Notes under the pieces: generated by a model | Database searches by the model: none | What the model was told of the DNA's origin: nothing | The model's input: the letters and a program-made list of their open reading frames with translations, nothing else | Source: Diaporthe sp. PMI_573 | Lineage: Eukaryota > Ascomycota > Sordariomycetes > Diaporthales > Diaporthaceae | Reading direction: 5' to 3' | DNA: 64,000 nucleotides | NCBI GenBank assembly: GCA_021399435.1 | Contig: JAJTUP010000013.1 | Span: forward strand, 372,001 to 436,000 | Made by a program: the position numbers and the translations under genes | Part shown: piece after piece, positions 13,950 to 54,569 of the stretch | Layout: every line of letters begins with the position of its first letter | Position numbering within the stretch: the stretch's first letter is position 1

Positions 13950-15163
13950 ATGTTTACGTCAAGTATCGCTTTTGCGGCCCTCGCGGCCTTGCAAGTAATG
14001 CCTGGAGTTCTTGCCGATCCCGCTGCCGCCGCGGCTCCCGGCTGCGACGGACCCGATTCCCGGGTCTATCCATCAACTGGCGCGGTCGTGATCGATCCCA
14101 GCGGCGCCCACACTGGCAGTCACAAGACCATCAACGCAGGAGTTGCCACACTGAAGAACCAGACGGCTGAACAAACAATTTTCATCCTACCGGGCATCTA
14201 TCACGAGCAGGTCCTTCTCTCTCCTCTGCAGGGCCCGCTCGTTCTTCAGGGCTACACTTGCGATTCAAGCTCGTACGCGCACAATGAAGTGACGATCACT
14301 TCTGGGCTCGCACAAAAAGATATCCCCCCGGAGGTCACCGGTGAAGCTCGAAACGACCTCACGTAGGCATCCTTGTTCTCCTTTTACGGATCCCCGTATT
14401 TCTTGTTTTGGAATGTTCCAGAAAGAACACTTTAGGCTCGGTAGCAGATGATTAAGAATTAGATAGAAGCACCGTACGGCTCAAATCGGACAACATCAGG
14501 GTCTACAACCTTAACATTGCCAACACCGCTGGCAATGTGGGCCAAGCCCTGGCAGTGAACGTCAATGCAACAAACAACGGCTTCTATGGAGTTAACTTTA
14601 CGGGTGAGAAGATGCGTCTTTGCCTGCAGTTACAAGACAATTACTAACGCCAAGCAGGGTACCAGGACACAATCCTTAGCGACAAGGGTCGCCAGCTCTA
14701 CGCTAACTGTTACATCAACGGCGCCATCGATTTCATTTTCGGCCGCTATGCGCAGTCGTGGTTCGAAGGCTGCGATATCGAGTCGATCGGGCCTGGATAT
14801 ATTACAGCCAGCGGGCGCGAGTCGGACGATAGCTCTGCTTTCTACGTCTTCAACAAGGCCACGGTCACGGGTATTGCTGGCAAAGGTTCGACGTACCTGG
14901 GTCGTCCTTGGCGCCCTTATGCACGTGTCGTCTTCCAGAACAGCGATTTAAGCGATGCTGTCAACCCCACAGGATGGACAGATTGGAATGGAGACAACGT
15001 CACCGACCACGTTTACTTCAAAGAGTTTCAAAACACTGGTGCCGGGGCGGACCTGTCACAGAGAGTGGCCTATAGTGGTGTTTTGGAGGACGCTGTCAAG
15101 ATAACCGATATTCTTGGAGAAGGTTTTGAGGAGGAGTCTTGGATTGATGCAAGTTACCTGTAG
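13950..15163 (+). CDS. Secreted pectin methylesterase (CE8)
   Basis: Removes methyl esters from pectin in plant cell walls, preparing it for polygalacturonases and lyases. Exons 13950-14362, 14467-14603, 14658-15163; 351 aa. The N-terminus is a signal peptide (MFTSSIAFAALAALQVMPG) with likely cleavage after VLA. Family motifs appear in order: GIYHEQV, QALAV, GYQDTI (catalytic Asp region), DFIFGR (second Asp) and LGRPW (substrate Arg/Trp). Length fits fungal enzymes. Intron 1 (14363-14466, 104 bp) is one of three near-identical introns in this window and is the most diverged copy. No close partner gene; with the alpha-L-rhamnosidase downstream it points to a plant-associated life style. Confidence 0.95.
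14363..14466 (+). repeat. Introner-like element copy A (intron 1 of pectin methylesterase)
   Basis: A 104-bp intron with the shared core: ACGGATCCCCG from offset 24, then TTGTTTTGGAATGTT, then AACACTTTAGG and GGTAGCAG, ending in TAG. The order and the distances from both splice sites match copies B (25200-25304) and C (52123-52226, minus). It is more diverged than B and C: the second GGATCC arm reads GGCTCGG and the CTAAC branch site has become GATTAAG. Confidence 0.85.
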
Positions 15164-16055
15164 ATACGGTTGCATACTGGGAGGAAGGCTCTGCGCCGGG
15201 TACTCTATCGATCATGTACACCATTAGGTATCGAATATTCTTTGTGCCATTATGGTGTGCACGACTGGAGTTATCTTCTCCCACGATGCATTTTCAATAG
15301 GAGCTTGCTATGAAAGAAACTGCTGTCATCATCTTAATCCAAATGCATAGAGTTCAACAGAAGATGAAACATAATACACAGAGAAAAGAAGTCAAAAAGC
15401 AAAGCAATAAACTCAATACATTACTAAAAATGTAACCTATACTATTTTAACCTTAGGAATCATTCTATGTAAGTAGTAATTTCTTTTTTAATCCATATAT
15501 ATATATATATATATATAAGATCTGTCTCTGCTCTAATTTGCCACTACGGTTGACTCCCCCTGCCTCCCTTCCTTTTTCTTCCCCGCCCCCCCCCCCCCGC
15601 CGTGTTGTTGCCACACAACTACATGGCTTGCTTTACGAAATTTAGCTAAAAGCAGCCTCGACTTCAGAATGAATCTGACCCGCCTGGCTAAACAGATTAC
15701 TATGTCGAAGAACTGGGACATTTTTTGGCGCGTCACACTGATTCAGTGACTTGAAAAGCCCTGACAGTGCTCAGCCACAAAGTGTTCGCCGGTTTGACGG
15801 AGATGATGACAGAGTCGATGAATCCGGGATACCTGGAGACAAATTGAATGCGCCTTCGAGATTTGTGCTTTACTAGGCTTCCGAAAAATGTGCGTCAATT
15901 AAAATAACAGTCGCAAATCGTTTCACTTGCGCCAAGGGCAATTTATTCGACATTAATTTGCGTCCGCTGAGTAATGAGTCCGGATTTCCCATCATGAACC
16001 GGGCTGCTGAGGATGACTTTTACTCAATTAAATGTTTACCAGTATGGACAAGGGT
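15164..16055. other. Intergenic with (TA)n and poly-C tracts
   Basis: Between the convergent ends of pectin methylesterase and an MFS gene. It holds an AT-rich stretch with a (TA)n run near 15496-15518 and a C-run near 15585-15598. No gene is recognised. Confidence 0.6.
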
Positions 16056-17902
16056 TCATTGTAGCCTGCTCTCCCTCTTCTGCCCATCGGGTGAACTTTT
16101 CCCTACCCTTTCTGAACCTTGCTCATCTACAGGCACCGAAGATTGGTGTGTCCCATGACCCTTTACATTCAGCCTTCTCTGTCTCCACTGCAGCCCTTTC
16201 CAATGCAGAGCAAGGAGAAAAGTCGCGGACAAAAGCAGAATAGATGCCAAGAGCAGAAACGTCCAACCAGGTCCTGTGGCTCGCAATAGACTACAACAGT
16301 CAGAGTCAGCTCTCAAAGGACCAAGGGACTGGTTTCATACAGATTGGAGGAAGGAAAAGATCACAAGGTTGGAATAGCCGAATTCAAAGCCAGCAGCGTA
16401 GCACCTTCTTCGGCCCGTAGGCCACAGATGGTAGAGGTTTCTTCTTCAAGGGGTTCAGATCTTGTTTAAAGACTTACGGATCAAGTGCTGCAAGATAACC
16501 CGCAGCCATTTCGCATCGGACAAGATTGCAAGCGGCTTGTGCGGTCGACGGACATTCTTGGTTCACATCGACGAGTAGAGTGCTCAATGCCGTGAACATT
16601 GTCTGAATGGTTAGACCAATAAAGAATTGGGTAACAAGTGGGCCAGCCATTACTACACCTGCCTGCAGTTGCCAGCCATAGGCCAGGATGAGGCAGGCGC
16701 TAACGGAGACGAGTGGGACGATCGTTCGGAGTCTTGCTTTTTCGATTGGGAAAGTCGACAGGTTGTCAGCTTTGTTGCGAGTGACAGGAACACCTAACTC
16801 GGCGGCTGTCTTCCGGAAGTTTCTGTCGAGTAGCCTTCCAGTAGCAAAAGCAGATAGAGCACATGCAATACCAAAAGGTATGTAAACGAGCCCACTAGCG
16901 AGCCCTGTAATTTCGTAGATATCGAGAAATAACGAAGACAGTGAGGCTTGGAGACATGAATAAGTCGCATAGCCCACGCCGTACGCCGCCATCACCAAAG
17001 CGGTGCCGGGGGATCGAAGCAGCTTTATGGACGTCAGTGGATTCATTGAAGCTCTCCCTTGGTCTTTCTTTTGATCCGGTGCTTCATCTGCAGACCTGGC
17101 TGCCACCTTGGGGAGAAGAGGAGGTAATAGTGGTCGATTAATACCCCGGGCTTGTATACTTCCGTTGCCAACAATGCCTCGGCTGGTCTCTGGCAAGAAC
17201 AATGCTATCGGTATGAGGCAGCACGGCGTAGCAGCTGAGAGGAACCAGAAGATGGAGCGCCATGACCACCGCAACAGCAACAAGCCACTCAGAAGGGGAC
17301 CGATACTAGGCGGCGTGTTTAGACTGACGTAAGTGTCAGCGCGATGGATCAATTTCTGTGCCAAGGAGAGATTTGAGTTGAATTAAGAGGCTGTTCACAT
17401 ACAAAAAGGATATGACGCCTGCGTATCCGCCTCTCTCAGCAGGCGTGAAGAGGTCACTTAAGACACCGTACGTGACGGAGAACGTCCCTGAAATACCTGC
17501 ACTCTGAACCATCCGCAAGAAGAACAGAAGTCCAAAATCAGACTGCAGGGCCAGGCCAACATTCGATAGTAGGTAGACTGTCAAAGCAATGAGAAATACG
17601 GGTCGCCTCCCGAAGCGATCCGCCGCGTTTCCTGTAATAGAAGGAAAGATTCCCGACACGATGAGGTAAGATGTGACCGTGAGATTGATTCTCTCGATGC
17701 TTTCGTCAAGGTCTTGGGCAATGGCCGGTATGGCCGGAAAATAGATAAAGCTGCTGGCAGATGAGAACCACCCTGCGAACGCCGAAAGGCCAATGATGTA
17801 TTTCTTCTGTGTGTGCGAAAACGCCGAATACCCAGGTGCCTCGTCAATGTGAGACTGGGCCTGGATGGCGTCTTCTGGCGAGTTTTCCTCCTTGCTAGCC
17901 AT
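16056..17902 (-). CDS. MFS multidrug transporter, DHA1/QDR-like with 12 helices
   Basis: Predicted plasma-membrane exporter. Exons 17902-17403, 17323-16478, 16290-16056; 526 aa. The start is the ATG opening MASKEENSPEDAIQ; in-frame sequence further upstream has no ATG. Features: a first helix after a polar tail, the motif-A loop NAADRFGRRPVF, a motif-C region TPPSIGPLLSG, a long central loop rich in charged residues, and a short cytoplasmic tail. Splicing intron 1 joins VISFF to LNTPPSIGP; splicing intron 2 joins AALDP to LLRATGPGW, as the last helices require. Intron 2 is unusually long (187 bp) and is homologous to an intron in the Zn2Cys6 gene 36 kb away. Substrate unknown. Confidence 0.9.
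16291..16477 (-). repeat. Second repeated intron family, copy 1 (intron 2 of MFS gene)
   Basis: A 187-bp intron beginning GTAAG. On the minus strand it carries a GATCTGAACCCCTT block near the 5' end, a CCATCTGTGGCC block, and at the 3' end TTTGAGAGCTGACTCTGA followed by CTGTTGTAG. Copy 2 (external intron in the Zn2Cys6 gene, 188 bp) has the same blocks in the same order, including GCTGACTCTGA as the likely branch site and a TGTAG acceptor. Confidence 0.75.
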
Positions 17903-18428
17903 ACCCGGGTAGTTCAGGTAACAAATTGCGTGAGCCAACGAGCTCAAGAAAACGCGACGTTGAGAAGAGCGCCGACACAGAGAAGTTGGACGTCAGCACG
18001 AGTGGATCCACCCTGAGCCTGGGAGAACCAACACCAACTTAGAATAGTGGGTCCTCGCATCCTACGGCAGGGTTCTCGGTGTTATTAATGCTACAGTGGA
18101 GGCGGGTCCTCGTGGAAACCAGATCACCTAATCCATGTGAGGTACTCAGCATCCGCCAATCCTGCATATCGGGGGCATAGAAAATATTGTAGCTGGAATT
18201 GGCGCTCGGGGTCTGGGACTTTCAAATGATTGGGGTATACTGTATAGCGAAATCTCGGCTTACAAACCAGAATGATTTCACGGCGAGCTTGATGGATTTC
18301 CAAGTCCTGCCCCCCGCCTTGCTACTACCTAGAGACGTCATCAAAGCTTACTGCCCGAAGATTCACCGACTAGGTCACAACCGCGGACTCGGAGGATTTA
18401 CAAATGTCAACTAAAGGCTAAAATTTAT
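17903..18428. other. Intergenic; no gene recognised
   Basis: About 0.5 kb upstream of the MFS gene, presumably containing its promoter. No domain-bearing frame is seen. Confidence 0.5.
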
Positions 18429-19120
18429 TTGCTTAAGACTCAAGTCATTTCTAACAATTTTGCCTTGAAAACAGTCAATGACGCAGACAGATGCACCATG
18501 GTACTCGACATTGATCCGGCCGATGTCCGGCACCAGCGAGACCTGGAAACGGTGGAGTACGACCTGTATAGATATGCAGCTGAGCTCGCTGTCCTGGACG
18601 TCGGGGAAGTTGAGAGTGCGCGCAATTTTGTGGGTATTTTGTATGAGGAAGAAGCGCCAACTGGGCAACTCTTTTGGGCGGACTGGCGACTGATGGTGGC
18701 CTGGAAGTCATGGGGGTTAGTGACCAGGAAGTATATCGGGCAGCAGAAACTTTGAAAGGAAACTATACAGATGTTCCTGAGGAAGTATATCTTTTCAACC
18801 TTTTGCCTTCAAAGATGGGAACGCCGGTACTCCCTGCCCGATGATACAATTGTCAAAGCTCTCGGTATCTCTATGAAGCTCAATTCACAGGCCAAGCTAG
18901 GTGCAATATCTTTACGAAAAAATACCCAAGACTACTGAGAACTTCAGCCGCCGCCTCGGCATGTTTGAGCTTGATGAGACCAGTGCAGATTTGGTCAAGA
19001 TGTTTATAAGTGGCTGGAGTCGCAGAACGGTCGATGATTATGTGGTAGCCGAAAAGCTATGGCCTATTATATTTGAAGCCGTGGTTATATGGGAGACTGG
19101 CTTGAATCGAAGATGATAAA
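18429..19120 (+). pseudogene. Decayed gene remnant, family not recognised
   Basis: Several consecutive plus-strand frames read like real protein but are broken by stops and frame changes: around 18501-18755 (ending near WADWRLMVAWKSW), around 18768-18900 (RYSLPDDTIVKALGIS) and 18901-19116 (RRLGMFELDETSADLVK). No single intron set joins them, so I read this as an old dead gene. I do not recognise the family. Confidence 0.3.
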
Positions 19121-19559
19121 GGAATTGCTCGAGATTGGTGAGAAGAATACCGTTACTGGTCATAGTATACGGCACTGGAAGAAATGGGCGGTAGTAGCCC
19201 AGAGAGATTGTTTAAGTATCTTGGTTTTTAATCTAAATATATCTGTTTCTGAAACATGTTAGTGCCAATAATCTGCAATGGCTTTTTCTTGCCTTGCGGT
19301 TGCTTTCCTTAATGCCCCGGGGCTTCGGTGTCCCAACCTGGATTGGTCACCTCGGGCATTCATCTCGATTTGCACCGCACAGCAGCATTCAGCAACTCGT
19401 GCGGGTGGGCAATTTGAGCGCAATGACCAGCCTTTACCTGGCTGTCCACAATGTTGATAGGAAAACTATGTTCTTATCCATTACAGACGTTCGACCTCTA
19501 GATCAATCTGGTATCCACTGGTTCTTCCATCCGGTATATAGTCAGCACATGTTAGCTCG

Positions 19560-19990
19560 GTGATTTCACTCAGACGCTTGAGAAGAAGTGATGGTGCCAC
19601 GGGGGCGTTGGAGAGGTCTCAATCAAGCAGAATATCTCCTGAGCCATATGGCGTATATGCCCTTGCGAGAAGCCGTATTTGTGTCCAGGGTAGTGTACAT
19701 CGCAATTGCGGAGATTTCCGATATCTCACTGAAGACCAGTGCTCTTCATCTATTTTATGTTAGCCTTGACAAGAACTTTCAAACATAACCTCCTCCGACA
19801 TGATGTTGATGGCTGCGCGAAGCTTGATGAACGGAGAAGACATGTACCCTGTACTACTCTGCGAAGTTGCGGAGCTAGTAAGAATGACATGCGGACATTC
19901 TTCTTTGAGATGATGTGCTATCGCTGTAATTACCTGGGCATTGGATCTCTGAAGTCCTGCCTTAGGTTATCCCCGTGAACAACTGGTCCA
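19560..19990 (+). pseudogene. Possible MFS transporter remnant
   Basis: The plus strand at 19594-19788 encodes a hydrophobic run (AVFVSRVVYIAIAEISDIS) resembling the helix plus SD-x(n)-R loop in the middle of MFS proteins. In another frame at about 19800-19890 there is MMLMAARSLMNGEDMYPVLL, resembling the following helix. The frame changes and stops mean it cannot be expressed as such. The assignment rests on pattern memory only. Confidence 0.25.
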
Positions 19991-24503: not shown

Positions 24504-26369
24504 ATGGAGAACAAGAAGCACTTGGCGGACCCAACGGTATTGGCGTTGGGCGATGATTTGAAGACTCCATCGTTGCAACATGCACCATCTCTCAGCAGCG
24601 ATGAAACCCCCGGAGAAAGCTTTGAGATTTCCACCCATTCAAAGGTGTCTCAAGCTAGGGGTGTCACAATGATAGTTACCTTGTCCGGCATAAGTTTTCT
24701 CAACACAATGGGGTCCGGCATCCTGATCGCAGCCTTGCCTCGCATCGCGGAGGACGTGGGCCTGGACAAAAGTTTGATATTGGTGAGCTTGTCATTTTCT
24801 CCAGCTTCGGGATAAGACCGACACGTCGAAGACTCGATACGTACTACATGCGACAAATTAATTGACGAGATCAAATCATCACTCAGTGGCCAGCGGCTGT
24901 CTATGCTCTCGCAGCAGGTTGCCTCCTCCATGTCTTTGGCAGCATCGCCGACATCCTCGGACCCAAGCCCACCTGGATAGCCGGTAGCTTTCTTTTCATC
25001 ATTTTCACCGTGGCTCTAGGCCTTGCGACCACGGGCATTCAGGTCATCATGTTCCGCACGTGTCTCGGCATCGCCATGTCTATGTGCCTGCCTACCACCG
25101 TGTCCCTGATCACAAACACATTCCCCAAGGGCAAGTGGAGAAACACGAGCTTCGCAATGAATGGAATGGCTCAGCCCCTGGGTTACGCCCTAGGCCTTGG
25201 TAAGCTCACTCTTCTCCTGTCACGGATCCCCGTCTTTCATGTTTTGGACTGTTGTAGAATGCAACACTTTAGGATCCGTAGCAGGACTAACGTCATATTG
25301 TAAGTGCTCGGCGGCGTGTTCACCGACACAATTGGGTGGCGATGGTCATATTGGATCATGGCCATTGTCAACTTTTGCTTGTCCACCGTCTCGATCTGGT
25401 CCCTCCCTAATATTCAACACATGTCGTCAAAAGCTTGGACGAGGCGGCTCATCGAGGATGTGGACTGGATCGGAGTGGCAGGGTTGAGCATCTCGCTAGG
25501 ACTATTGATGTACATACTCGCAGGTAAGCTGACCACCACCATCACCGCCTGGACACCGTGCAACAAGGAACGGGCCGCGCTGACAGGTCGTGCTCCACAT
25601 AGTGGTGACATCCGATTACCGAAAGATCAGTCAGCCGGCGACCATCGTCCTGCTAGTTGTGTCCTTCCTGCTCCTTGCCGCCTTTCCATTCTGGATGCGC
25701 TATCAGGTTCAGCATAATCGGCCAGCTTTGGTTCCTAACCGTCTCTGGCGGCAACCTGCCTTCACGGCAGCATGCCTGGGTGTATTCTTCTGTTGGGCCT
25801 CTCTGAATGGGATCGAGTACTTCACAACGCTTTACTTCCAGCAAGTTCAAGGACTTTCAGCGCTCGACTCGTCGCTCCGCTACTTCTCCCAGATAGTCAT
25901 GGGCACGTCCATAAATATCGCACTCATCTACCTCATCCCTCGCGTGCGGGTGGTTACGCTCTGCGTTGTCACGGCGGCAGTCACACTGGTCTCTCCTGCG
26001 CTCATGGCTACGGCCGCGATGGACGAGAACTACTGGCTGCGGCCATTCTGGGCGCTGCTCCTCTGCCCTACCAACCCCTGGGTCCTCTTCAGCGTGTGCA
26101 ACCTCGTCATATCCGATGCATTTCCGCCCGAAATTCAGTCCCTCGCGGGCGGTGTGTTCAACGAGGTTGCGCAATTTGGAAACTCGGTGGGACTGGCCGT
26201 GACAGCGGCAATCGCGGCATCCGTCACCGAGCACTCCACCAGCACCTCGGAAAGGACGGCGCTGATGGATGGGTTCCGAGCTGCCTTCTGGACGGTCTTT
26301 GCGAGCACGGGCATGGTATTGCTTGTCACATTTGTTGGTTTCCGGAAAATCGGCATCATTGGGAAGTGA
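24504..26369 (+). CDS. MFS drug transporter, DHA2-like
   Basis: Exons 24504-24782, 24887-25199, 25305-25523, 25603-26369; 525 aa. A polar N-terminal tail of about 55 residues is followed by a long series of hydrophobic helices. Recognisable elements: SGILIAALPRIAEDVGL in the first loop region, DILGPKPTW at the motif-A position, a motif-C-like GLVLGGVFTDTIGWRWSYW formed across the second splice junction, and a C-terminal helix block ending in GFRKIGIIGK. Size and WRWSYWI loop fit DHA2-type exporters. Intron 2 (105 bp) is a mobile-intron copy; intron 1 (104 bp) is similar in length but only weakly similar in sequence. Divergent from the GST gene; substrate unknown. Confidence 0.9.
25200..25304 (+). 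repeat. Introner-like element copy B (intron 2 of MFS gene)
   Basis: A 105-bp intron with GTAAGC donor and TAAG acceptor. It shares with copy C the blocks CACGGATCCCCG / CATGTTTTGGA / TGTAGAATGCAACACTTTAG / GATCCGTAGCAGGACTAACG. CTAAC is the branch site about 15 nt before the end. The ACGGATCC and GGATCCGT blocks are inverted relative to each other and can pair as a stem. Confidence 0.93.
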
Positions 26370-38485: not shown

Positions 38486-39498
38486 CTACAGAAGCTTCTT
38501 CGCCAGACCCTGGGTGGCTGCAAGAACAACGCCCTCGGTCACCTGCTCCGGCATGCTCATGAAAGGCGAATGAGAGCTGTTCATTGTGTAAGAGACGTAA
38601 CCACTGGGGAACTGAGAGGCCATAGATTGCTGAGTTGCGAGCGGTATGGCTTGGTCCTGCTCGGTGAAGAAGAATCCAACCTCAACACCGCTGTTCCAAG
38701 GCTCGTATTTGTTGTCATCGGAGAAGATACGGGCAGGCTCGGCCTCGAGTGTAGCAACGGCTTCCGCGACAAGGATCTCGTTCGCCACATCCGCGTAAAA
38801 GACCTGGGTTGCATTGCTCGCGGTGATGAAATCGCCCTGTAGTGATATTTCCCTAGTCAGTTCATCTAGTGTTCCTTTTCCAAGAGAGACGAAAGAGAAG
38901 GAGGTACTCACGCTTGCATCTGGGGTCATCCACCACAAGTACTCGCCGCCGAGAGCGTCGAGGAGACTGGTCTGAGCTGGCACCGCGAAAGCAGTCATCT
39001 ATCTTATGTTAATTGCCAGCTACGGAGCATAAAGAACTGCGTTCCGGAGATCTCCAGAGCACAAAACCTAGGAAATCGTAGAGGGATGAGAGTTGTGCTT
39101 ACATAGACCAACATGATAACTCCATTGTCACCAAGTCCAGCGGTGGATCGGTCTTTGTACCCGAATCCCTCCACAGCTGAAGATGCAACCACACCGCCGT
39201 AGCTATGGCACACCATCACGACATCCTTGCCTGCGTCCGTGAGCGTAGCCAGCTCGGCCGCGAGGGCGGCGGCATCCTCCGCGACACCAACGGAGGCATT
39301 GGTATTGCCAACTGAAGGCAGTGCCACGGCCTCCGTGGGGTAGCCAAGAGCCTCGAGCTGAGAGCGTACTGTGTCAAAGGCCCAGGTTCCATGCCATGCG
39401 CCGGGGGTGAAGACAACGGTCGGCAGGATGTCACGCTTAGCGGGTGCTGCGAGGCCAGCCGTTATCATGACGGCGAGGGCGAGGTTGGCGAGATGCAT
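38486..39498 (-). CDS. Secreted alpha/beta-hydrolase
   Basis: Exons 39498-39103, 38998-38912, 38836-38486; 277 aa. The signal peptide MHLANLALAVMITAGLAAP is followed by a dibasic KR (possible Kex2 site). The fold is recognisable: FTPGAWHGTWAFDTV (oxyanion loop), MVCHSYGGVVAS (nucleophile elbow, Ser about 99), FFTEQDQAIPL (acid-residue region) and NSSHSPFMSMPEQV (catalytic His). This is the pattern of the small esterase-like AB-hydrolase 6 group common in fungi. Both introns are phase 0. Substrate unknown. It stands tail-to-tail with the dead aldo-keto reductase. Confidence 0.88.
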
Positions 39499-42858: not shown

Positions 42859-42974
42859 GGCATGCCCTCTACTTGTCATCTTTAAAGGAAAACACGTCTA
42901 ACAGCAATAGTTTAAGACCCTTAAAGGGCATAAGGATTAAGAGTTTACGGCAACAAAAAACGGCTGGACTGATA

Positions 42975-43508
42975 TCTGAAGGTTGGTGGATCGAATGGGA
43001 ATCAGGTAGCAGTAGGGTGCACTGAGGTCTTGTTGGGACGCTTGAGAATGGTTTGGACAACTTTGCATTGAATTTGAGTGGGCTTCTGTCAGCCCTCCTC
43101 ACAGTCCCTCCGACATCGTCTCAACCCTGGGCACGCTGTGGTTGGCTCTGGTGCGCAGATAGGGAGGCCGGAAAATTCGGCCCCCAGACCCACTCTCTTC
43201 AGCCATGAATAACTAGCCAACCCTAACCCTGATAGTAACCAAACTAAATACAGATAAACTTCAGAAATCAGGCTATCTAATAAACTAGGTTACATGCTTT
43301 TTGGGTAAGAAATAAGGGGAATGCAGAGGTTCGAAGTTAGGGTCTTACAATAGCCCAAAAAATCGGCTCACGGCCACCAAACTCATCTGCCGGCGCGCAC
43401 GCCACATAGGCACTTAGCCGAAAAAGTGCCAAGTCTAGGGTAACTCCCTACGTGAAGTCTAGGGTAACCCCTTACGTGCAGCGCCCACACAAGCGTTTCC
43501 GTTTAACA
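42975..43508 (-). mobile_element. Solo LTR of 534 bp, copy 1
   Basis: Runs from TCTGAAGGTTGG to CCGTTTAACA on the plus strand (TGTTAAACGG to CCTTCAGA on the minus). It is flanked on both sides by the 5-bp duplication TGATA. Two other full-length copies of exactly 534 bp lie at 45647-46180 and 55775-56308. Excising it with one TGATA restores the interrupted transposase frame of the host pogo-like relic. Inside is a tandem 24-bp duplication (43431-43454 and 43455-43478, unit AAGTCTAGGGTAAC...). This copy differs from the other two at several sites around 43165-43215. Confidence 0.95.
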
Positions 43509-45180: not shown

Positions 45181-45646
45181 TAAATTATTCTTTGTCTTTG
45201 TAGGATACTCATTGCTGTTCCAGCTTACTAGAAGGACTTAAGGAATATAATAGTTTATATAGTACCGTGGGGAATTTCGCGGCCAACTTAAATTGGCACA
45301 TTAAGACTTCCGCCCTCTTGGCTCTTTCGCGCCACAGCGGTGAAGAATGCAAGGCTATACTGGTAGGCCAGTGTTTGGGTGAGATCCTGCGCAGTTTTGA
45401 AAAGCTTACAGACGTCAATTGAAACTTTATTAACCGTTGCGTGCCACCTTTCTGTCAAGGCACGTGCTCCGGACTGAGACTGTGAGAATGTGAGGCTGGC
45501 GAATTGGCGTCAGCTTCCACCTACCCCCACCGCCCCCCTCCAGTCCTTGGGCGGACGAGGTGACGGCAGGATTGTATATACAAGCAGGCAATCCGACATT
45601 TCTATCTTCAGACATTTATGTCATGAGAAGAGCCTGAGGCTGTGGC
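45181..45646. other. Non-coding DNA before the LTR
   Basis: About 470 bp of moderate GC with no recognised gene. Its last five bases, GTGGC, are the outer half of a target duplication whose partner now lies at the far end of the inverted island (55770-55774, as GCCAC). Confidence 0.6.
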
Positions 45647-46180
45647 TGTTAAACGGAAACGCTTGTGTGGGCGCTGCACGTAAGGGGTTACCCTAGACTT
45701 CACGTAGGGAGTTACCCTAGACTTGGCACTTTTTCGGCTAAGTGCCTATGTGGCGTGCGCGCCGGCAGATGAGTTTGGTGGCCGTGAGTCGATTTTTTGG
45801 GCTATTGTAAGACCCTAACTTCGAACCTCTGCATTCCCCTTATTTCTTACCCAAAAAGCATGTAACCTAGTTTATTAGATAGCCTGATTTCTGAAGTTTA
45901 TCTGTATTTAGTTTGGTTACTGTCAGGGTTAGGGTTGGCTGGTTATTTAAAGCCAAAGATAGTGGGTCCGAGGGCCGAATTTTCCGGCCTCCCTATCTGC
46001 GCACCAGATCCAACCGCAGCGTGCCCAGGGTTGAGACGATGTCGGAGGGACTGTGAGGAGGGCTGACAGAAGCCCACTCAAATTCAATGCAAAGTTGTCC
46101 AAACCATTCTCAAGCGTCCCAACAAGACCTCAGTGCACCCTACTGCTACCTGACTCCCATTCGATCCACCAACCTTCAGA
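45647..46180 (+). mobile_element. LTR of 534 bp, copy 2 (left inversion junction)
   Basis: TGTTAAACGG to CCTTCAGA, in opposite orientation to copies 1 and 3. The flanks do not match each other: GTGGC on the left, GAAGC on the right. The same two pentamers, complemented, flank copy 3, but paired the other way round. Confidence 0.95.
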
Positions 46181-46800
46181 GAAGCTTTTGTATTAAGGTT
46201 GCAAGAGGCTATAGAACTTGTCCAAGCTGCCATGGTGTCTGCCCAGGAGAGGCAAGAGCACTATGCAAACTAAGCAAGGGCCTTATCTAAGTAGTTTAAG
46301 AAAGGTGATAAAGTCTAGTTATGTCTTAGGAATATAAGGACACTAAGGCTGTTAAAGAAGCTAGACTGGCTAAATGCTAAATATACGGTGGTGGAAGTAA
46401 TTGGATCCTATAACTATAGATTAGATACGCCGCCTGGGATCTACAATAGGTTTTATGTATTGCTTCTCTGTTGGGTACCTGAGGACCCCCTTCCTTTCTA
46501 GACCTGCGATGACTATTAGCCCCTAGCCTTTGTAAATAAGAATGATCCTGATTAGGCCGAATATAAGGTGGAAGAGATACTAAACCACCGAAAGAGAGGC
46601 CATAGAGTCTAAGTGCTCATTAAGTAGAGAGGCTATGTAAGGCCTACGTGGGAGCCGATATAGAACCTGTTAGATACGGCAGCTCTCAATATATACAAAC
46701 TAGCCTGTAGAGAATTTACATCTGATCAGGGCTAGCAACCAGTTGTCCCCAACCTATATGCTTAATAGCGCCTTGAGGATGGTCCGCCGCGGACCGACAA
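46181..46800 (+). pseudogene. 3' end of Ty3/gypsy pol: integrase C-terminus and chromodomain, RIP-damaged
   Basis: From the LTR junction the plus strand reads EAFVLRLQEAIELVQAAMVS, then AQERQEHYAN, followed by stop-interrupted sequence containing FKKGDKV, LNAKYTVVEVIGSYNYRLD, YKVEEILNHRKRGHRV and RGYVRPTWEP. The last two form a chromodomain, typical of fungal chromoviruses. A purine tract (AAAAGAGGGAGAGGGGGGG) just before the next LTR is the polypurine tract. The frame continues exactly from the integrase part at 56309 once the island is re-inverted. Confidence 0.9.
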
Positions 46801-46821
46801 AAGAGGGAGAGGGGGGGTAGT

Positions 46822-47029
46822 TGTAATAGGCTGAGGCCTGGATGGCTTGGCCTTGGAATCTCTCGGCCCGGAAGGGCGTACAGACCAAACCAATGTACAG
46901 ACCCTTCTATGCAGATACTTATGGGCGGGGACATGTAGTTGCCTTTAGTTGTTTCCTTTATTCTGCAAGTTTAGTTATACTCATAGAGTGGCCTAGCTAG
47001 TTGTAATATACTACCTTGAGACCGTTACA
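46822..47029 (+). mobile_element. 3' LTR of the gypsy chromovirus (208 bp)
   Basis: Starts TGTAATAGGC right after the polypurine tract and ends ACCGTTACA, giving TGTAA/TTACA terminal inverted repeats. It is distinct in sequence and length from the 534-bp LTR family. The 5' LTR is not visible in the window. Confidence 0.75.
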
Positions 47030-48483
47030 GTATTATCTAATTAAAGTTATTTATATTATTAAAACATATTAATTAACTAGTTAAAAGTATATAATATAGA
47101 TTCTCATAAGAGCTATTAGTGTCACAAGAGGGGATATAGAGACAAGGCAACTATTTAAAATACATTAATTAAAGTTAAGTCGGTGCTATCTTCCATGTAT
47201 GGGAGGGAGCTGCCAGGAATGAAAGGGATAATGTTTAAATCGTTGAGGGTGTGGGCACACGGGCCACACACACACTCACAATTAGCTACTGGGTGCAATG
47301 ATAAAGGTTGCCTGACTTGGTGGGTGTGCACGGCAGCCACAAGACGTCGGAATTTGGCGCGTGGCGGTCAGGTCGCCGCTGCCGTTTGACGCGCTGTGGG
47401 GCGGAGTGCCAGTCTTAGTCCCGGGGATTGGCAGCTGCACCAATTTTTGGGGGTCCTGCTAGCTCCGCTGTTACCCGCCGAGGGCAGGATTTGCCGGATT
47501 GAGACAACCTTTGCCGATTACATTGTCAAAATCAACTGCATCGAATCCAGCTCTCAGCAGCAGTGGCCCGTCTGTTTGACAGCAGCTCACGGTCAATGCT
47601 TCCAAAGTGAATCCAGTCAACTGCCTTGGCGTCCCTGCTCGATCCATCCACTTGGTTCTGGTCCAAGGATATGCTGAGACATCTTTGGATCCCGCACATG
47701 AGATGAAGTGACTACACACTCCATTTGATACCGTCACAATCGCAGCAAATTCTGCACAAGACAGAACAGAATGTACCGCTACCTTTTCCAAAAACCTTTG
47801 AGATTTCCTACGTGTGGTGGCGCTGGCTTCCCCCCCCCCCGCAGCACAGGGCATGATTGAAAATAAGTGGAGAGTCTCTGACCAGTACCAATCCCATGGC
47901 TGGTGTCTAGGTAGGTACCTGGTCAAGGAGCACTGCAGCCGGAGGAGTGGATTGTAGCAAGCTGAATTGCAGGTACGTGGCTACGTACCGTCACAAGAGG
48001 ACGGACAACTGCAAATGTATGTACCAAGGTACCACATCACCCTTGCGTGCTGGTCAAGGTCAAAAGTGCAAGTGTATGAGACACCTTCCCTGATCGGGAC
48101 GGTTCAGCAGTTTGGCCCCACTCAAATCAGATGCCCATAGCAATAGCAATCCAAATGCCGATTTCTCATTGGTGCTGATTTTCCATGGGTGCTGACTGCG
48201 AATATATTTAAACCCAGCGCCCCCTGCCCCCTTCCCACCTCTTGCCCCCTGGTCCTATATGCGGCTCTTGAGCTTTTTTGTGAGTACTACATCAATGATT
48301 CTATTTCTAACATCTCCCAGCATACCATTCTTCCCCTCTCCATTAGATTCTTGTGCTGCAACCCATCTTACCAACCGCATAATACTGTTGCCCTCTAAGT
48401 CTTATAGTTGCCTCTCATTTCTCCCATCTAAACACTACTATCTCAATACTCCCCTCTTCACTGCCATCTCTTGACGCTTCTGT
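47030..48483. other. Intergenic; no gene recognised
   Basis: About 1.45 kb. A 151-codon minus-strand frame (47926-47471) has no domain. A TATA-like ATATATTTAAA lies near 48203, upstream of the minisatellite and the small candidate exon. Confidence 0.5.
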
Positions 48484-48679
48484 CTCTATACTCCCATCTC
48501 TACACTCCCATCTCTACACTCCCATCTCTACACTCCCATCTCTACACTCCCATCTCTACACTCCCATCTCTACACTCCCATCTCTACACTCCCATCTCTA
48601 CACTCCCATCTCTACACTCCCATCTCTACACTCCCATCTCTACACTCCCATCTCTACACTCCCATCTCTACACTCCCAT
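48484..48679 (+). repeat. 14-bp minisatellite, 14 copies
   Basis: Fourteen head-to-tail copies of CTCTACACTCCCAT (the first reads CTCTATACTCCCAT), perfect over most of the array. Because 3 x 14 = 42, one frame encodes a repeating 14-residue pattern (SLHSHLYTPISTLP), but this is a by-product of the repeat. Confidence 0.95.
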
Positions 48680-48770
48680 CTCTTCCCTGCCATCCCACCC
48701 TCGGTGGCTTAATACTATTAAGATATTCTTTATGGTTCCTTATACCTCCAATATGGCCAAGTAGTCTATA

Positions 48771-49289
48771 ATGTCTAAGCAGAAGGTCACTTGCTAATAT
48801 AATTCTATTCTAGCTATACCACCCCAGAGAGTATTAACCACAAGTGCAAGAAGATTGAGCAAGCTACTATCTGATCATCCTTTCCATAGATCTCGCTGAC
48901 GTCATATACAGATACCCGGACAAAAGAAACGAGGTGGCTCCTCCCACCAGGGAGGTTCGAACAAGAGGGGCCGGGGCGGCAGCAGCAGCAACAATAACAA
49001 AAACGGCGGCGGCGACACCATCAACATCCCGGCCAGGTCTTGTATTCAAGGGGCCTCCGAGCGGGTCGTCGTCATCCTCCCAGGCGACAACATCTTCAAG
49101 CCTGCCCCCGTCCCCGTCGCGCCGTTGGCGGCGGCTCCTTTGGAGCAAATCAAGCTCCTTCCAGGCGACACCATCCTCCCGGGCAGCAACACCCTGCCAA
49201 AGGACTCCAAAAAGGAGTCAGGTCAGCCCGTCCCTGGCAGCATGACCCTCCCAGATGGCGGCATCACCAGGCGGCACTGCGGTGCCTGA
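48771..49289 (+). CDS. Candidate small RGG/LPGD-repeat protein (tentative two-exon model)
   Basis: The frame 48912-49289 is open for 125 codons and ends in TGA. It reads KKRGGSSHQGGSNKRGRGGS, then DTINIPARSCIQGASERVVV, then a repeated motif ILPGDN / LLPGDT / LPDGG. The low-complexity Gly/Arg start and regular LPGD repeats look like protein rather than chance. It has no ATG of its own. A possible first exon is MSKQK at 48771-48785, with an intron 48786-48911 ending in CAG, but its donor GTCACT is poor. No family recognised. It could also be an exon of a decayed gene. Confidence 0.3.
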
Positions 49290-50458
49290 GAAGTTTTGAA
49301 TTTGGTTTTCTTTTTGCCCTCCCAGAAGGTTTTTTTTTTTTTTTAGTTTAATGAAGACAAGTCTACCTGCTCAGATAGCTCTCTCAAGTGCAGTGATTGT
49401 GACATGACCCGTGAATGTGTAATGTGTTGTAGATGATGATTCTTAACCCGCTGTACATATGGAAATTAAGAGGGGTGGAGATTGACGGAGCGGGGAAAGT
49501 GATGTTGTAATTTGAACGCGTGTGCCACGGAACGAGACTGTACCTCGGCACAATGCACTCCAATCTCAGCCAATGATCTTATACGTTTTATGTTCGTTTT
49601 CCAAATCGTTCCCGAGCACTGTTCTTATAATGGTCCACAAACGGGTAAATGCTACTGACTGAGATTATGACTGCGACTATTCCGCACACAGTAGGCATTT
49701 CCAATCGTTGAAGTAGGGAGGGACACAGAGATGCAAAACCAAACAGCGCGCAGAGACCATGAGCATGAGTTATACTCTTGCTTATTATATGCACCCTTTT
49801 CACATTGAAAGACCGGTCCTTCTTTGTATAGACGCGAAATATTGTTTCATTGATTCCCGGATGATGGTTGGAAACTTTCCGATCACCGGGTCGGGCACTT
49901 CCGAACCGCCACATGGATTGTATTCTAAACCTACTGTTATCGGTATTCATTTTTTTTTTTAACGCTGGGTGTTTAAGCATTCACTACTATATGAAGAGAC
50001 CGCCTATATACTGCTTAAGAAGCGTATATACATGGATTAAAAACGAAACCACTTAGGTGAATTCTTCAAGCCCTATTTTTGAGCCGCTTTAGCGGCGCTC
50101 GGAAATCCCCGTCTTTCAACTTCATACTCTAGTAATTTTCGCGGGGCGACGGTTCTGGGGGTCACGCTCTACCGGCAAGAGCTTGCATTCTTCAAGGCGC
50201 CTGAGACAGTCCTCACATCTGAATGGCAGAAAGGCACAGGTTGACTGTGAAGAATTGCTGATTCACGATAATGGCCGTCATGGGTAGAAGAGGGCGTTGA
50301 GCATCGATGAGCATGCACTGCCGAGACATGAGACATAGAACGTCACCGAGTATCTTTGCTCACATCGCGGTCAAACTTGCAGGAGTCTTCAGAGTTGTAG
50401 AGTGTACTAAAATGTTAAGATTTCGTGAGGCGAACATGAATGGCCGGTGTCCACTTGC
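49290..50458. other. Intergenic with poly-T tracts
   Basis: About 1.2 kb without a recognised gene. T-runs occur near 49329-49344 and 49950-49961. Confidence 0.5.
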
Positions 50459-50620
50459 ATCGCCAACGGCGAGATGCTGCGCGCCATCGCGGAACCCTCC
50501 GGTGGTGGGTGGATCGCCAGTTCCGCGGTCATCACCGACCCAGAGCGTGTGTATCACCTCCCCGGACGGAACGTTCCCGGGACAGCAGACCCGATCCCCC
50601 AGGATCTGAAGTATATGTAG
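50459..50620 (+). pseudogene. Orphan C-terminal exon fragment
   Basis: The plus-strand frame reads IANGEMLRAIAEPSGGGWIA, then SSAVITDPERVYHLPGRNVP, and ends with QDLKYM and a stop. Composition and phrasing are those of a real enzyme C-terminus. Nothing upstream continues it and there is no start codon, so it appears to be the last piece of a lost gene. Family not identified. Confidence 0.4.
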
Positions 50621-50717
50621 TCAAGCATGCATCCCAATGCAGTCATTAAAACGACGACTTGTTTTCAGCAGACATCCACGCGAACTATTACCAAATTATT
50701 CATGATCTGCAGGAAAA

Positions 50718-51825
50718 ATGGCGCGCAAAGAATACATTTTCAAAGGCGAGGGGAATCAGGGAATTGCAGCTGATGTGTTCTATCCGGATGGAGACTCATC
50801 CACGACGTTTCCTATAGGTTCGTGGGCGATATTCACGCCGCTACTGGCAATTCTTTTGGTTGGCTGACATCCGCTTGTTTGCAGCATTGTATTTCCACGG
50901 TGGAAACTTCACGGTCGGTTCAAAGGAGCTGCTCTCCCAGAACTATGTCCAGAGACTTCTCGGCTTGGGCTTCGTTGTCGTCTCGGCAAATTATAGGCTC
51001 TGCCCCACGATTTCTGTATTTGATGGCCCAGTTACGGACGCCTTGGACGCGTATAGCTGGACCGGGAGTGTGTTGCCAGCTCTGTTGCACGAAGACGTTG
51101 GTGTGCGCGTTGATGGTTCCAAGATCGTGGTATTAGGCCACTCAGCAGGTGGCCTTCTAGCCCTGTTAACGGTATGTCCTGGCAGAGGAGCGTACGGTAG
51201 AGAGCCCCCGAATCATGTCTGGTTTAATTCTGCAGCATGCGATACAGCGGGCTGACTTCGGAACTCTGCGATACAGGCTGGCTCCCCCAACCCACCTAAA
51301 GCGCTATTGGACTTGTTCGGCATGAAGTATCTGCAGGATGCATCTTTCCACACGCCCAGTGCTGCCTTCGCAAAACTTCCCCCCTTTGACAAGACCTTCC
51401 TCGACCAAGTACACGAGCAATATCCGCCCCCGAGCAGCGGCCCATCTCCTATGACGGCGAAGGGGCCAGACCTTTCGAACCCTAGAGTTGCATGGATGTT
51501 TAACTTCGTTAATGAGGGGAAACTTTTCTCGACCGTCGTGGCTGACGGCAAATATGATCGGGTCGACCCTGCAACTTTGTTCGCCCAGTTGGGAAGGAAC
51601 TTCCCACCAACATATTTTATTCACGGGACCGCAGACACACTCGTGGATTGGAAACTGTCACGACGCGCACACGAAGAGCTGCAAGCCAATGGGGTCGATA
51701 CGAAAGTGAGTCTTGTGGATGGAGCGCCCCACGGCTTCGATGCCAAAGCCCAACCAGGCGACGAGACGTTCGCCATTGTTGAGAAAGGGTTTGAGTTCCT
51801 CAAGGCCCATATATCTGTGGAATAG
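50718..51825 (+). CDS. Alpha/beta-hydrolase, esterase/lipase (HGG) type
   Basis: Exons 50718-50817, 50885-51171, 51277-51825; 311 aa, no signal peptide (MARKEYIFKGEGNQGIAADV). The oxyanion-hole motif LYFHGGN (about residues 35-41) and nucleophile elbow VLGHSAGGLL (Ser about 120) define the hormone-sensitive-lipase/carboxylesterase group. The Asp/His part of the triad fits YFIHGTADTLVD and DGAPHGFDAKA near the C-terminus. Splicing restores frame at all junctions; intron 2 (105 bp) does not resemble the mobile-intron core. Likely a cytosolic esterase or metabolite hydrolase. It lies within the inverted island, convergent with the Zn2Cys6 gene. Confidence 0.9.
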
Positions 51826-51882
51826 GTCGGTTGCTGTGCTGGACCTCAGAAGGGAGTAGCTCATGGTAGCACCAAGTAGCCG

Positions 51883-54569
51883 CTATATCGGGTTAGACAG
51901 GTAATCAAGCTGTGTGCTAACCATGCCAAGGATTGCCTACAGCATTCAGAGTCAGCTGTCAAAGAACCAAAGAAATATCTTCATGCTGATACAGTGAGAA
52001 GTGAGCCACAAGGTGGCCATAACCTGTTTTAAAACCTGCAGCCCATAACGTCTTTGTTGTATAGGCTAAAGATGGTGTATGTTTGTTCTGGAAGGGGCAA
52101 AGATCGTATCCAATAGCTGCTTCTAATGGTGACGTTAGTCCTGCTACGGATCCTAAAGTGTTGCATTCTAGAACATTCCAAAACATGAGAGTCGGGGATC
52201 CGTTGCAAGAGAAAAGTGACACTGACACCATGTAATTGTCTTCTGTTGCGTCAAACGTGCCAAATATATCATCCTCGACACACTGCCCGGAAATGTCTAA
52301 AAGGTCGACTGCTGTTGACTCAGAAGACGCGTCCATGCCGATGGCGTTGGGCGTGGGCTTGTCCGGCGTCGGCATCTGGATTAATTCACCGAGCCTCCGC
52401 ATCTCGTCTAGTGAACACCAGAGTCTCGGTTTCGACCCAGCTCCCGTGTAAGGAGAGGCCACCAAGAAATCGATTGCCGCGTGAAAGGCGGCGCGGCAGA
52501 TGGGTCCGTATGCAGTAGGGTTGCAGGAGGCGGCCAGGAACATGCAGGATGCCGACCCCATGATGAAGCGGTCCGCTAGAGGTCCCTCGAGACGATTCAA
52601 ACCCTGGTGTCCTGCGGCGTGCATCATCTTCCCATACAATGCAACAAGTGCCTTGGGGAGGGCAATGGTGGCCTCTGCAGACTGCGGTCGGCAAGCAAGC
52701 GCCTTGCAGGAACTAAGAGATCTGAAATGCGCCAACATCCTCAGATAGGTTGCGCGCATTTGGAAGAAAGACTCCAGGACGACCCGCTCGGCAGGTGGAG
52801 GTACCACGATGCAATCTGGAGGAAACAGGTCGATCCGTGACGTTTCCTCGGCCAATTTCTGGATGCGATGGTCCAGGTAGTCCATCCGATCGTTGGTTTC
52901 TTTCGACTTGTAGCCACCGCTTTCGGCCTTGGTCGTGCGGATTAGTTCGAACAGCTCCGCCTGGATAACGTTCAGATTGACCATTGCCGACAGCAGCGGA
53001 TGGCGCCCGTGCTGTCATTACTCCAGTTAATTATGTTGTCATGGAATGGATGGAGTGGTTCTAATTTTGGGTTTGATAAACAAATAAGATGTCGTACCAA
53101 GTCCAAGACGCTGTCATCTACTTCCCTGTCGTGCAGATGATAGGGTAAGGTCGCGAGGAAGCTGCATCGCTTGTCGAGGTCAACAACGCACGCCATCAAC
53201 CTTTTGAGAAAGATCGAGCGCTCGATCGTGGCGTTAACGTTTCGGTGATATCTCTCTTTGGGGAGCCCGACCTCGAGAGCAGACTGGACCATGAGGCCAG
53301 CCACTCGCCACGCCTTCCGGACCTCTTGTCGCAACGTGTAATAGATTGTCTGCAACGATTTTCGCATATGAGCTTCTCGTCCTAGCGAACGCCAACAAGT
53401 TCGAACTGAGACTCACCAGTAAAGCACCCATAATTACGTCCTCAATCTGGGCCTGGTCTCGCCTCATGATGTTGTCGGCGTTCCAGATGAGACGGGACTC
53501 CAGGGAAGAGCTCAACGGGCTTGTGTCATCACCCTCAATAAGCATGCCGATAGCCAAGACCGCCTTGGTGGCCTCGATGTCAATCAAGTCCACGCCCAAG
53601 TCCTGGGCGGCGTCCGCGAAGGAAAGCAAAGAGGTCCTGAAGAGCGAATCTATGTTCTTCTTTGCGATTGACAGGTCGATACAGGGGTATACGGGGAAAA
53701 GGTGATCGCGGAAGGCGGCAAGGTGAGCCAGGGCGTTCTCGTAGCCTAACTCGAGTACCGGCCGGGCAACCTCGAGTGCGGCTGAGGGGTTCTCGTCAGG
53801 TAAACTAGGCTCTTCCGGGGCCGGTTGGACCGGCTCGGCGTGGTTAGCGGCGTTTGGAGCTGTGATTATGCCTCTCTGCTCTAGAATCCGTCTAGCCTGG
53901 TCCAGGGAGTCGACGAAGGTGATAGACTCGCTGTTGCTCGCCGCGTTGGTGCTGGCCGTGTCGCTCCGGCGGCGTCTGAGAGAGGATCTCAGATGGGAGG
54001 GGCTTCCGAAGCGCTTGGTGGAAGACTGGATGTCGTCGCATATCTTCCTCATACTGGAGAGGAGTTGGCCGAGGTCTTGTTGAGTGGTGCACAGGTCGGC
54101 TGCCGTGCAGTCCTTCCGGGGTGCCGCATTTGCGCGCCTGAAGGGGTGCCGCACATTGTCAGCGATTTCGAGCCTACGTGCTTATGGTCAAATGGGGTCT
54201 ATGCACGGGGTCCAGCCCAGGGGAGAACGGGGAGGCGTATGGAACAAATATTTTGTCGTACGCGGTATCTGGCTGCGGCACATAGTCGTTGTATTTGCAA
54301 TTGGCGTTGAGCTCCACACATCGGCTGCAGGGCAGGCTACCGCTGCACTTGACCTTCCTCGTCTTGCAGGATTCGCTTGGTGAACATTATTGTTAGCCTG
54401 TAGTCTAGCCAAAATGTCACGCATGCCCTGCATGTGAGCACGGCGTGGACTGTCTGTATATGCAAGAGAGGACTAACCAAGCGATGCGCGTGTATCTCTC
54501 TCGCTTCCGGGTGCGCCGAGTCTCGTTTCCCTCTGCGTCATGGGTTTGAGATCGCTTCTCACTGGGCAT
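51883..54569 (-). CDS. Zn2Cys6 transcription factor with fungal-specific regulatory domain
   Basis: Exons 54569-54478, 54375-54262, 54137-53417, 53349-53098, 53011-52229, 51936-51883; 671 aa. The first intron splits the zinc cluster: joining GCTTG to CGAATCC yields ACESCKTRKVKC, then SGSLPCSRCVELNANC. This is a perfect C-X2-C-X6-C-X5-C-X2-C-X6-C (Cys31-Cys57) after a basic stretch. A coiled, Ser-rich linker follows, then the all-helical fungal TF domain (residues about 200-480; YYTLRQEVRKAWRVAGLMVQ, LDKRCSFL). The last intron (52228-51937, 292 bp) is composite: a mobile intron inside the donor of another. If only an inner 106-bp piece (52228-52123) were removed, the protein would end after 18 other residues with a stop at 52066. 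Targets unknown; adjacent to an esterase gene. Confidence 0.9.
51937..52228 (-). repeat. Stwintron: second-family intron (copy 2) split at its donor by copy C
   Basis: The outer intron consists of GT at 52228-52227 plus 52122-51937, 188 nt in total after removal of copy C. It then begins GTAAGC, has GCTGACTCTGA as the likely branch site about 17 nt from the end, and ends GCTGTAG. It is homologous end-to-end to the 187-bp intron at 16291-16477 (minus), including the GATCT...CCCCTT block and TTTGACAGCTGACTCTGA. Flanking codons stay in frame after two-step removal. Confidence 0.75.
52123..52226 (-). repeat. Introner-like element copy C, internal intron of a stwintron
   Basis: A 104-bp unit on the minus strand from GTCAGT to CATTAG. 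It has the blocks CAACGGATCCCCG / CATGTTTTGGAATGTT / CTAGAATGCAACACTTTAG / GATCCGTAGCAGGACTAACG, near-identical to copy B. Pairing arms TGCAACGGATCC and GGATCCGTAGCA match at 11 of 12 positions. CTAAC is the branch site. Its excision joins GT to AAGC, recreating a canonical donor for the surrounding intron. Confidence 0.9.

Follow-up and report, generated by a model that had tools for sequence, protein, structure and literature searches.

By what means genomes gain introns has long been an open question, and it is raised in concrete form by a 64,000-nucleotide stretch of the genome of Diaporthe sp. PMI_573 (the window), in which a pectin methylesterase gene, an MFS transporter gene and a Zn2Cys6 gene appear to share one intron. 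The host is a plant-associated fungus, which we take to belong to the Sordariomycetes and not to the Dothideomycetes. A sequence-only reading had described near-identical introns in the three genes (copies A, B and C); their full-length alignment holds, as does the statement that the hosts are unrelated, the Pfam matches being to Pectinesterase (1.1e-49), MFS_1 (4.7e-37) and Zn_clus (9e-10). With up to three mismatches allowed, the window contains the 26-nt core CGGATCCCCGNNTNTCNTGTTTTGGA at exactly three places and 100 shuffles contain it at none; the three copies are related along their full length, as members of a single repeat whose ends are GT..AG. To these we add a fourth copy (39102-38999), which the earlier reading had missed. 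The family 1 members of the window are:

14363..14466, forward strand: copy A, old, in the pectin methylesterase gene (nhmmer 5.4e-23)
25200..25304, forward strand: copy B, subfamily Ib, in the MFS transporter gene (itself and 40 scored relatives)
38999..39102, reverse strand: fourth copy, the oldest in the window, in an alpha/beta-hydrolase gene (nhmmer 8.3e-06, seed model)
52123..52226, reverse strand: copy C, subfamily II, young, in the Zn2Cys6 gene, putative internal intron of a [D2,3] stwintron

Judged by translation, removal of the tested copies would restore a conserved protein. Without copy A (14363-14466) the product reads NDLT|S, identical in all five aligned homologues, and without copy B (25200-25304) it reads GYALGL|VLGG, identical in all six. 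Once copy C (52226-52123) is taken out, the 617-residue query matches P0121, a public protein from Diaporthe sp. PMI_573, at 100% identity. For the fourth copy, whose ends were read by eye and which scores 44 bits after model iteration, an Abhydrolase_6 match (28-260) extends across the junction. Elsewhere in the genome, junctions were gap-free in all three proteins tested, a polygalacturonase (PG), an amylase and a cyanamide-hydratase-like protein, and uninterrupted paralogues run across the insertion site in both genes tried (PG, C113 and C149; OPT, C57 and C143). The prediction that family 1 is spliced draws on homologues, on reading frames and on a single public gene model (P0121, for C). 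The ages proposed earlier, with C recent and A older, agree with identities to the nearest relative of 99% for C and 79% for A; the fourth copy is 63% identical to its nearest relative among 80 aligned copies.

A whole-genome search, which the earlier reading had called for, found the 3' core at 136 genome sites and the 5' core at 109, with none in either control. Flank-based counts cover 89 family 1 copies, and as the family was found by similarity, decayed intergenic copies may escape them. The length is exactly 104 nt in 49 of the 89. When the copy is removed, each side keeps 60 nt or more of open frame in sense for 80 copies, the other nine failing, and in antisense for 59. Coding sense and phase agree upstream and downstream in 49 copies and fail to do so in 40, against 6.5% agreement at random window positions, and neighbouring introners share a strand in 30 of 30 pairs. 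As a set, the 89 copies fit predicted sense introns of genes, and a MITE lying mainly outside introns, the outcome that the earlier reading had named as its refutation, was absent among them. Selection could purge antisense copies within genes, but not intergenic ones.

The donor of family 1 is mostly GTAAG or GTNAG and the acceptor mostly TAG, with CTAAC as a branch-site-like motif. An automatic rule taking the first AG after the branch site misplaces the end of A (14462, should be 14466) and of the fourth copy (39003, should be 38999), and probably those of C138:6457 and C196:1136069. Subfamilies were assigned by patterns that we chose ourselves, which placed 8 of 88 copies in the class 'other', and the family alignment took 80 of 86 distinct copies. 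Subfamily II copies in different genes are up to 99% alike, and a G directly precedes subfamily Ib copies in 17 of 17 cases. Target-site duplications (TSDs) were sought at 85 of the 89 copies, those with duplicate flanks or short frames being dropped; 3-nt matches numbered 0 (1.2 expected) and 2-nt matches 9 (5.6 expected, shuffles up to 15). The GT and AG in these counts arise by construction, since the automatic AG rule set the ends.

The window also holds two copies of a second introner family, about 188 nt long, unrelated to family 1 and present at 151 genome sites. One lies in an MFS-type gene, where MFS_1 matches the preceding exon (9.2e-16) and the domain match ends short of the junction; the other surrounds copy C:

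16291..16477, reverse strand: family 2, second window copy, 187 nt, in the MFS-type gene (nhmmer 2.6e-37; ends and open frame)
51883..51936, reverse strand: last Zn2Cys6 exon (AILGMVSTQLDYLSNPI*), absent from the public model P0121 (orthologues P0122-P0125)
51937..52122, reverse strand: body of the putative external intron (family 2) of the Zn2Cys6 gene, with 40 genome matches; orthologues run on NYM|AILG..
52227..52228, reverse strand: GT of the external family 2 intron, split from AAGC by copy C

Family 2 favours CA|TG sites, as counted in 25 of 35 hits, namely those with GT..AG at the expected ends, and these counts gave no TSD for it either. The targets of the two families are therefore not wholly random, as family 2 prefers CA|TG and subfamily Ib follows G. 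A masked all-against-all comparison of the retrieved stretches yielded no third introner family; one region matched by two others was left unclassified. The window had no Rfam matches, and viral contigs had no exact matches to the 20-mer searched.

The stem predicted by the sequence-only reading was recovered in B and in C, each with z about -3. Copy A lacks it (z 0.25) and is the exception among six folded family 1 copies, the other five having z from -3.05 to -5.25. In copy B its arms are:

25215..25229, forward strand: 5' stem arm (fold, z -3.05)
25272..25286, forward strand: 3' stem arm, just 5' of the CTAAC branch-site-like motif

Consensus folding of the 80-copy alignment with RNAalifold returned no structure, probably because of scattered gaps, and the named stem was therefore counted instead; it is paired in 86.5% of cells over the 80 copies, while its six doubly changed pairs are not above shuffles (6.6). 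Family 1 also has imperfect terminal inverted repeats (TIRs), the 31-nt ends being 60% alike against 26% in shuffles (47 copies of 104 nt), whereas TIRs in family 2 are at control level only. The subfamily consensus is symmetrical at 30 of 52 positions, with the TTCTAGAA palindrome at its centre (54-61 of 104 by our own count).

Copy C had been called the inner intron of the Zn2Cys6 gene. The wording fits, but C is not a simple intron, as it sits within the donor of a longer one. Once C is removed, the external family 2 intron measures 188 nt, and copy C in its 5' splice site makes what reads as a [D2,3] stwintron. A [D1,2] case is found in the OPT transporter gene on C160, where the alternative of the two parses tried shifts the frame. 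The reading frame supports both cases of family 1 within a family 2 donor, and an exact-motif search for further nested cases found these two only. Family 1 thus entered family 2 donors twice, at G|TAAGC and GT|AAGC and with two different subfamilies, apparently independently. Junctions spanning donors number 4 of 89 against 2.1 by chance, two being the nested cases; C141 and C35:559689, considered as further donor insertions, were judged by eye to be chance, and donor insertion outside family 2 finds no support. None of 36 family 2 matches has an insertion in its interior. That the insertion machinery of introners recognises 5' splice sites as targets is a tentative and rather doubtful proposal. 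To our knowledge, described stwintrons are almost all of the donor-disrupted [D1,2] type, a predominance that such targeting, if true, would help explain, and spliceosome-linked reinsertion of intron RNA would then yield stwintrons as its direct by-products. That one family lies within a splice site of the other points to a way in which new introns, and compound ones, can come into being.

Given the above, family 1 is probably an introner-like element: a spliceosomal intron that is mobile, non-coding and short (about 104 nt) and that would have spread through spliced intron RNA. The earlier proposal of a propagating intron is supported by the 136 sites, the open frames (80/89), the phase agreement (49/89) and the shared strand (30/30). 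Each copy brings its own donor, branch-site-like motif and acceptor at its ends, and insertion into an exon would therefore be silent after splicing. Excised intron RNA, which the hairpin may hold compact with its ends near each other, could be reverse spliced into transcripts or transcription-opened DNA, or could be captured at DNA breaks, and inserted RNA would then be converted into DNA. Where the target was the 5' splice site of another intron, a stwintron would result, as at copy C.

Insertion that is seamless, sense-only and free of TSDs favours such an RNA route (reverse splicing, or RNA captured at breaks) more than it does DNA transposition, despite the imperfect TIRs of family 1. Those TIRs, a mark of DNA transposons, cover both donor and acceptor, and family 1 could be a MITE-like DNA transposon with inverted ends that include splice sites by chance, as in algal introners; it would move by cut and paste, and genes would tolerate it in the sense orientation only. 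The insertion-site preferences (CA|TG; G before subfamily Ib) and two polygalacturonase paralogues hit at the same nucleotide would suit this reading. We nevertheless consider it unlikely, given 85 sites without a TSD, 89 copies of which none was shown outside genes, and a family 2 that behaves alike at insertion without TIRs; moreover, the element contains both of its splice sites and has no need to co-opt one. Ordinary, mostly intergenic MITEs resembling introns in three cases only would account for the inverted arms of the repeat, but for the copies read they are contradicted by frames, phase, strand and conserved junctions, which makes them the least credible reading of all.

Spread by gene duplication or by gene conversion between paralogues is hardly more credible. 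It does describe C161:136250 and C177:247204, a single pair whose host gene is duplicated in near-identical form, but the unrelated Pfam families of the hosts of A, B and C contradict it. By our own sorting, 26 similar flank pairs among the copies read with flanks comprised 11 same-gene neighbours, 6 due to translated introner sequence in the flank and 9 between different genes. Four of these 9 align as far as the insertion point, which coincides in two of them, namely in the duplicated gene and between the PG paralogues. The two introners in PG are not each other's closest kin, as 48 and 72 other copies are closer.

The likeness to Dothideomycetes introners drawn by the sequence-only reading stands for the kind of family but not for the host, which is Diaporthe, and the closest cases also include Xylariales. 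In the sections of Collemare et al. 2015 (PMC4457414) that describe them, the introner-like elements of the Dothideomycetes Fulvia fulva and Dothistroma are likewise near-identical canonical introns in different genes that degenerate with time, and gains made in parallel at identical or neighbouring sites are a further likeness. Compared by description, Diaporthe differs in fungal class and in having two families and nesting. Reverse splicing has been argued for the Dothideomycetes elements, as cited in PMC8469720. A search of the open-licence PMC literature (outside subscription journals and supplements) found no paper combining 'Diaporthe' and 'introner'.

The sister (stw)introns of Hypoxylaceae resemble family 1 in their cropped introns (about 93 nt vs 104 nt), self-complementary ends and central TTCTAGAA palindrome, and in being seamless, without TSDs and functional on the coding strand only. 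By description, the stwintron itself propagates there and cropping yields canonical introns, whereas in Diaporthe canonical introns would propagate, and two stwintrons, one of them [D2,3], look like an introner within another's donor.

Huff and colleagues reportedly described transposon-type introners in 2016. To the extent that the accounts of such introners (Huff et al. 2016; Gozashti et al. 2022) describe them, they are alike in being repeated introns with TIRs and unlike in that family 1 has neither a TSD nor a co-opted splice site. Ascomycete introner families are given as without TIRs or TSDs in the part of Gozashti et al. 2022 (PMC9860276) that treats them, to which the imperfect TIRs of family 1 are contrary. 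With two recent families, one with TIRs and one without, inserted in the same seamless sense manner, DNA and RNA routes become comparable in one host.

The stwintrons described from lipS, bioDA and the reticulon-like genes of Lipomyces (PMC5639578, PMC7138796) also have, as far as those accounts describe them, an internal intron within an external intron's splice motif, and PMC7138796 proposes new splice sites arising inside an intron. Those were followed in single genes, whereas in Diaporthe the internal intron belongs to a repeated family that can be recognised as such. Both nested cases can be recognised as putative stwintrons in which each partner, the internal and the external, is a repeated intron.

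Copies A, B and C, the family-1 introner-like introns of the window, aligned end to end over all three stretches and lie in genes with the Pfam domains Pectinesterase, MFS_1 and Zn_clus, respectively, upholding the sequence-only reading of them as alike over their whole length and hosted by unrelated genes. The 26-nt core common to them has exactly three window sites at up to three mismatches (0 in 100 shuffles), and the splice junctions of copies A and B are kept in homologues. A fourth copy lies in an alpha/beta-hydrolase gene, the domain of which spans the junction:

39102-38999, minus strand: fourth family-1 copy, 104 nt, 63% to its nearest aligned copy

For the pectin methylesterase gene that hosts copy A (about 14000-15162), Phytophthora pectinesterases (up to 65%) are numerous among the best 120 homologues listed, where Diaporthe and Gnomoniopsis come first and Phytophthora stands above Colletotrichum (54%); horizontal transfer between fungi and oomycetes would be a possible reading. 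The window also holds an array of 14-nt direct repeats at 48379-48722 and a 530-550 nt repeat, perhaps a young transposable element, in three copies 95-99% alike and in both orientations (42975-43508, 45645-46191 and 55764-56310).

Diaporthe is a Sordariomycete of the order Diaporthales and not a Dothideomycete. With three mismatches allowed, a search of the 83.7-Mb assembly located the family-1 3' core at 136 places and the 5' core at 109, with none for the reversed pattern of either, so the many genome copies expected of a propagating intron were indeed found. Copy B as genome query gave at least 41 matches, itself included (best 40 of 270 candidates scored). Merging 90 loci with the window yielded 70 stretches (275 kb) and 89 distinct copies, 49 of them 104 nt long by automatically set ends. 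The main differences among subfamilies are at the ends:

GTAAGCATCAC..CATACTTAG: family-1 subfamily ends
GTAAGCTCAC..CTGTAG: family-1 subfamily ends
GTCAGTGTCAC..CACCATTAG: family-1 subfamily ends, 41 sites at up to one mismatch
GTAATA type: 57 sites at up to two mismatches, a set that overlaps other subfamilies

The density is uneven, as 71 of the first 100 listed sites (of 136) fall on 10 contigs making up 8.1 of the 83.7 Mb, these 10 being among the 16 of 24 site-bearing contigs of known length. Contig C35 has 15.5 sites per Mb versus 0.5 on C1, where both sites are in the last 7%; this is possibly an accessory or subtelomeric compartment. At C161:136250 and C177:247204 a gene and its introner are near-identical on two contigs, either a recent segmental duplication or a duplicated assembly.

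Judged from their sequence context, family-1 copies appear to behave as introns and to be novel members of the introner-like elements. With the copy removed, a sense frame stays open for 60 nt or more to either side in 80/89 cases; the antisense count is 59/89, which makes this test weak by itself. By codon usage, trained on six window ORFs and compared with 2000 random window positions, both flanks are coding in sense for 60/89 copies (31% at random) and their phases agree for 49/89 (6.5% at random). A Pfam scan covered ten spliced flanks, picked from the 47 whose frames are longest: in seven a domain crosses the junction (one slightly under the curated cut-off), in one there are domains on either side only, and two have no domain. 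Against solved structures the junction is gap-free in all three proteins compared (polygalacturonase, alpha-amylase and a cyanamide-hydratase-like protein), and introner neighbours less than 1.5 kb apart share a strand in 30/30 pairs, two of them nested.

Copy C itself interrupts another intron. The spliced Zn2Cys6 query (617 residues) is 100% identical over its whole length to P0121, a public protein of the same fungus. Its orthologues P0122-P0125 have NYM followed by AILGMVSTQLDYLSNPI or near variants, and the window encodes such an end:

51936-51883, minus strand: last exon of the Zn2Cys6 gene, as in orthologues

As this orthologue-like exon is encoded there, the last intron is placed at 52228-51937 (minus). 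Copy C sits between its GT and AAGC, and taking it out leaves a 188-nt intron, GTAAGC..CTGTAG. In the model of P0121 (F5883DRAFT_713106) copy C is spliced out and translation continues into the outer intron; the protein ends MVSSYWIRS.., unlike the orthologues, a difference that seems to come from a failure to recognise this stwintron's outer intron.

On sequence evidence the outer intron belongs to a second family of introners (family 2), about 188 nt long, unrelated to family 1 and absent from the sequence-only reading. Its 186-nt body has at least 40 genome matches, itself included (best 40 of 111 candidates scored), and a 24-mer near the 3' end of that body has 151 sites at up to three mismatches (control 0). 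GT..AG stands at the expected ends in 25 of the 35 matches examined, and each of these 25 has an open frame to either side. The window holds a second copy:

16477-16291, minus strand: family-2 copy in an MFS-type gene

A family-1 copy at C160:334177-334280 separates G1 from T2 in the donor of a further family-2 intron; when two parses were compared, the [D1,2] one alone yielded an intact OPT transporter. The OPT gene (stretch L015, C160:332560-335649) carries a family-1 introner, this stwintron and a family-2 copy at 335295-335471. Genome-wide, the exact joint motif, a search that changed motifs escape, is found in these two composites only, both examined in full; the forward control returned 1 hit and the reverse control 0, which means that chance hits can occur. 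Of 36 family-2 matches examined, the two composites alone lie 60 nt or less from a family-1 match, and no family-2 match is split by a family-1 match. Since the internal introners belong to differing subfamilies and occupy differing donor positions, independent insertions would be favoured over copying of a ready-made stwintron.

The predicted stem held for five of six folded copies, which are stabler than shuffles (z -3.05 to -5.25), but not for copy A. The 31-nt ends of 47 copies of 104 nt have 60% inverted-repeat identity versus 26% in shuffles, and 86.5% of the cells of the named stem are paired versus 27-39% when it is slid. Covariation (0.126 vs 0.097) and cells altered on both sides (55 vs 28) exceed all 500 shuffles; doubly altered pairs show no excess (6 vs 6.6), and RNAalifold predicted no structure from the same alignment. 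The two-sided change mostly divides subfamilies and is therefore not independent evidence pair by pair.

How the introners spread may be weighed from their insertion sites. Among routes of intron gain, reverse splicing has been proposed (cited in PMC8469720), as have the repair of breaks with intron RNA (PMC8469720; PMC12403724) and DNA transposition (PMC9860276). DNA transposition may apply here, as family 1 has terminal inverted repeats (TIRs) and there are insertion-site preferences: a G directly precedes 17/17 subfamily Ib copies, and family 2 prefers CA|TG (-1 A in 13/25, +1 T or G in 23/25). However, at 85 family-1 sites no target-site duplication (TSD) was found, flank matches of 1-8 nt never rising above the highest shuffle (3 nt, 0 vs a mean of 1.2; 2 nt, 9 vs 5.6, highest 15), and the 25 GT..AG copies of family 2 have neither TIR nor TSD. 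Insertion phases 0, 1 and 2 are even (28, 31 and 26). The sense-only placement of the copies examined, ends that are splice sites and the lack of TSDs in either family point instead to RNA, and an RNA route is fairly probable.

In the polygalacturonase gene at C35:468918 and its paralogue at C163:1405051 (stretches L111, C163:1404900-1405450, and L022), 52-55% identical in protein, family-1 copies sit at the identical nucleotide and phase. Neither element is the other's closest kin: of the other aligned copies, 48/79 are closer to the C35 element than the C163 element is, and 72/80 are closer to the C163 element than the C35 element is. This looks like parallel insertion, whether as parallel gain or at an insertion hot spot, and resembles the parallel insertion reported for Dothideomycete introner-like elements (PMC4457414).

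PMI_573 is one of the Diaporthe assemblies listed in PMC12526002, and no paper in the open-licence PMC literature has both 'Diaporthe' and 'introner'. Close to the centre of family 1 lies the palindrome TTCTAGAA, and the cropped sister introns of Hypoxylon likewise have a near-central TTCTAGAA (PMC8469720); this is a lead toward common descent, not proof. The cited portions of the introner and stwintron literature gave no precedent for an introner family nested in the donor of another. There, PMC5639578 infers that an internal intron may arise inside a pre-extant intron, and PMC12403724 deems insertion of intron RNA within one possible; to this our analysis adds an internal stwintron partner that is a member of a recognisable repeated family.
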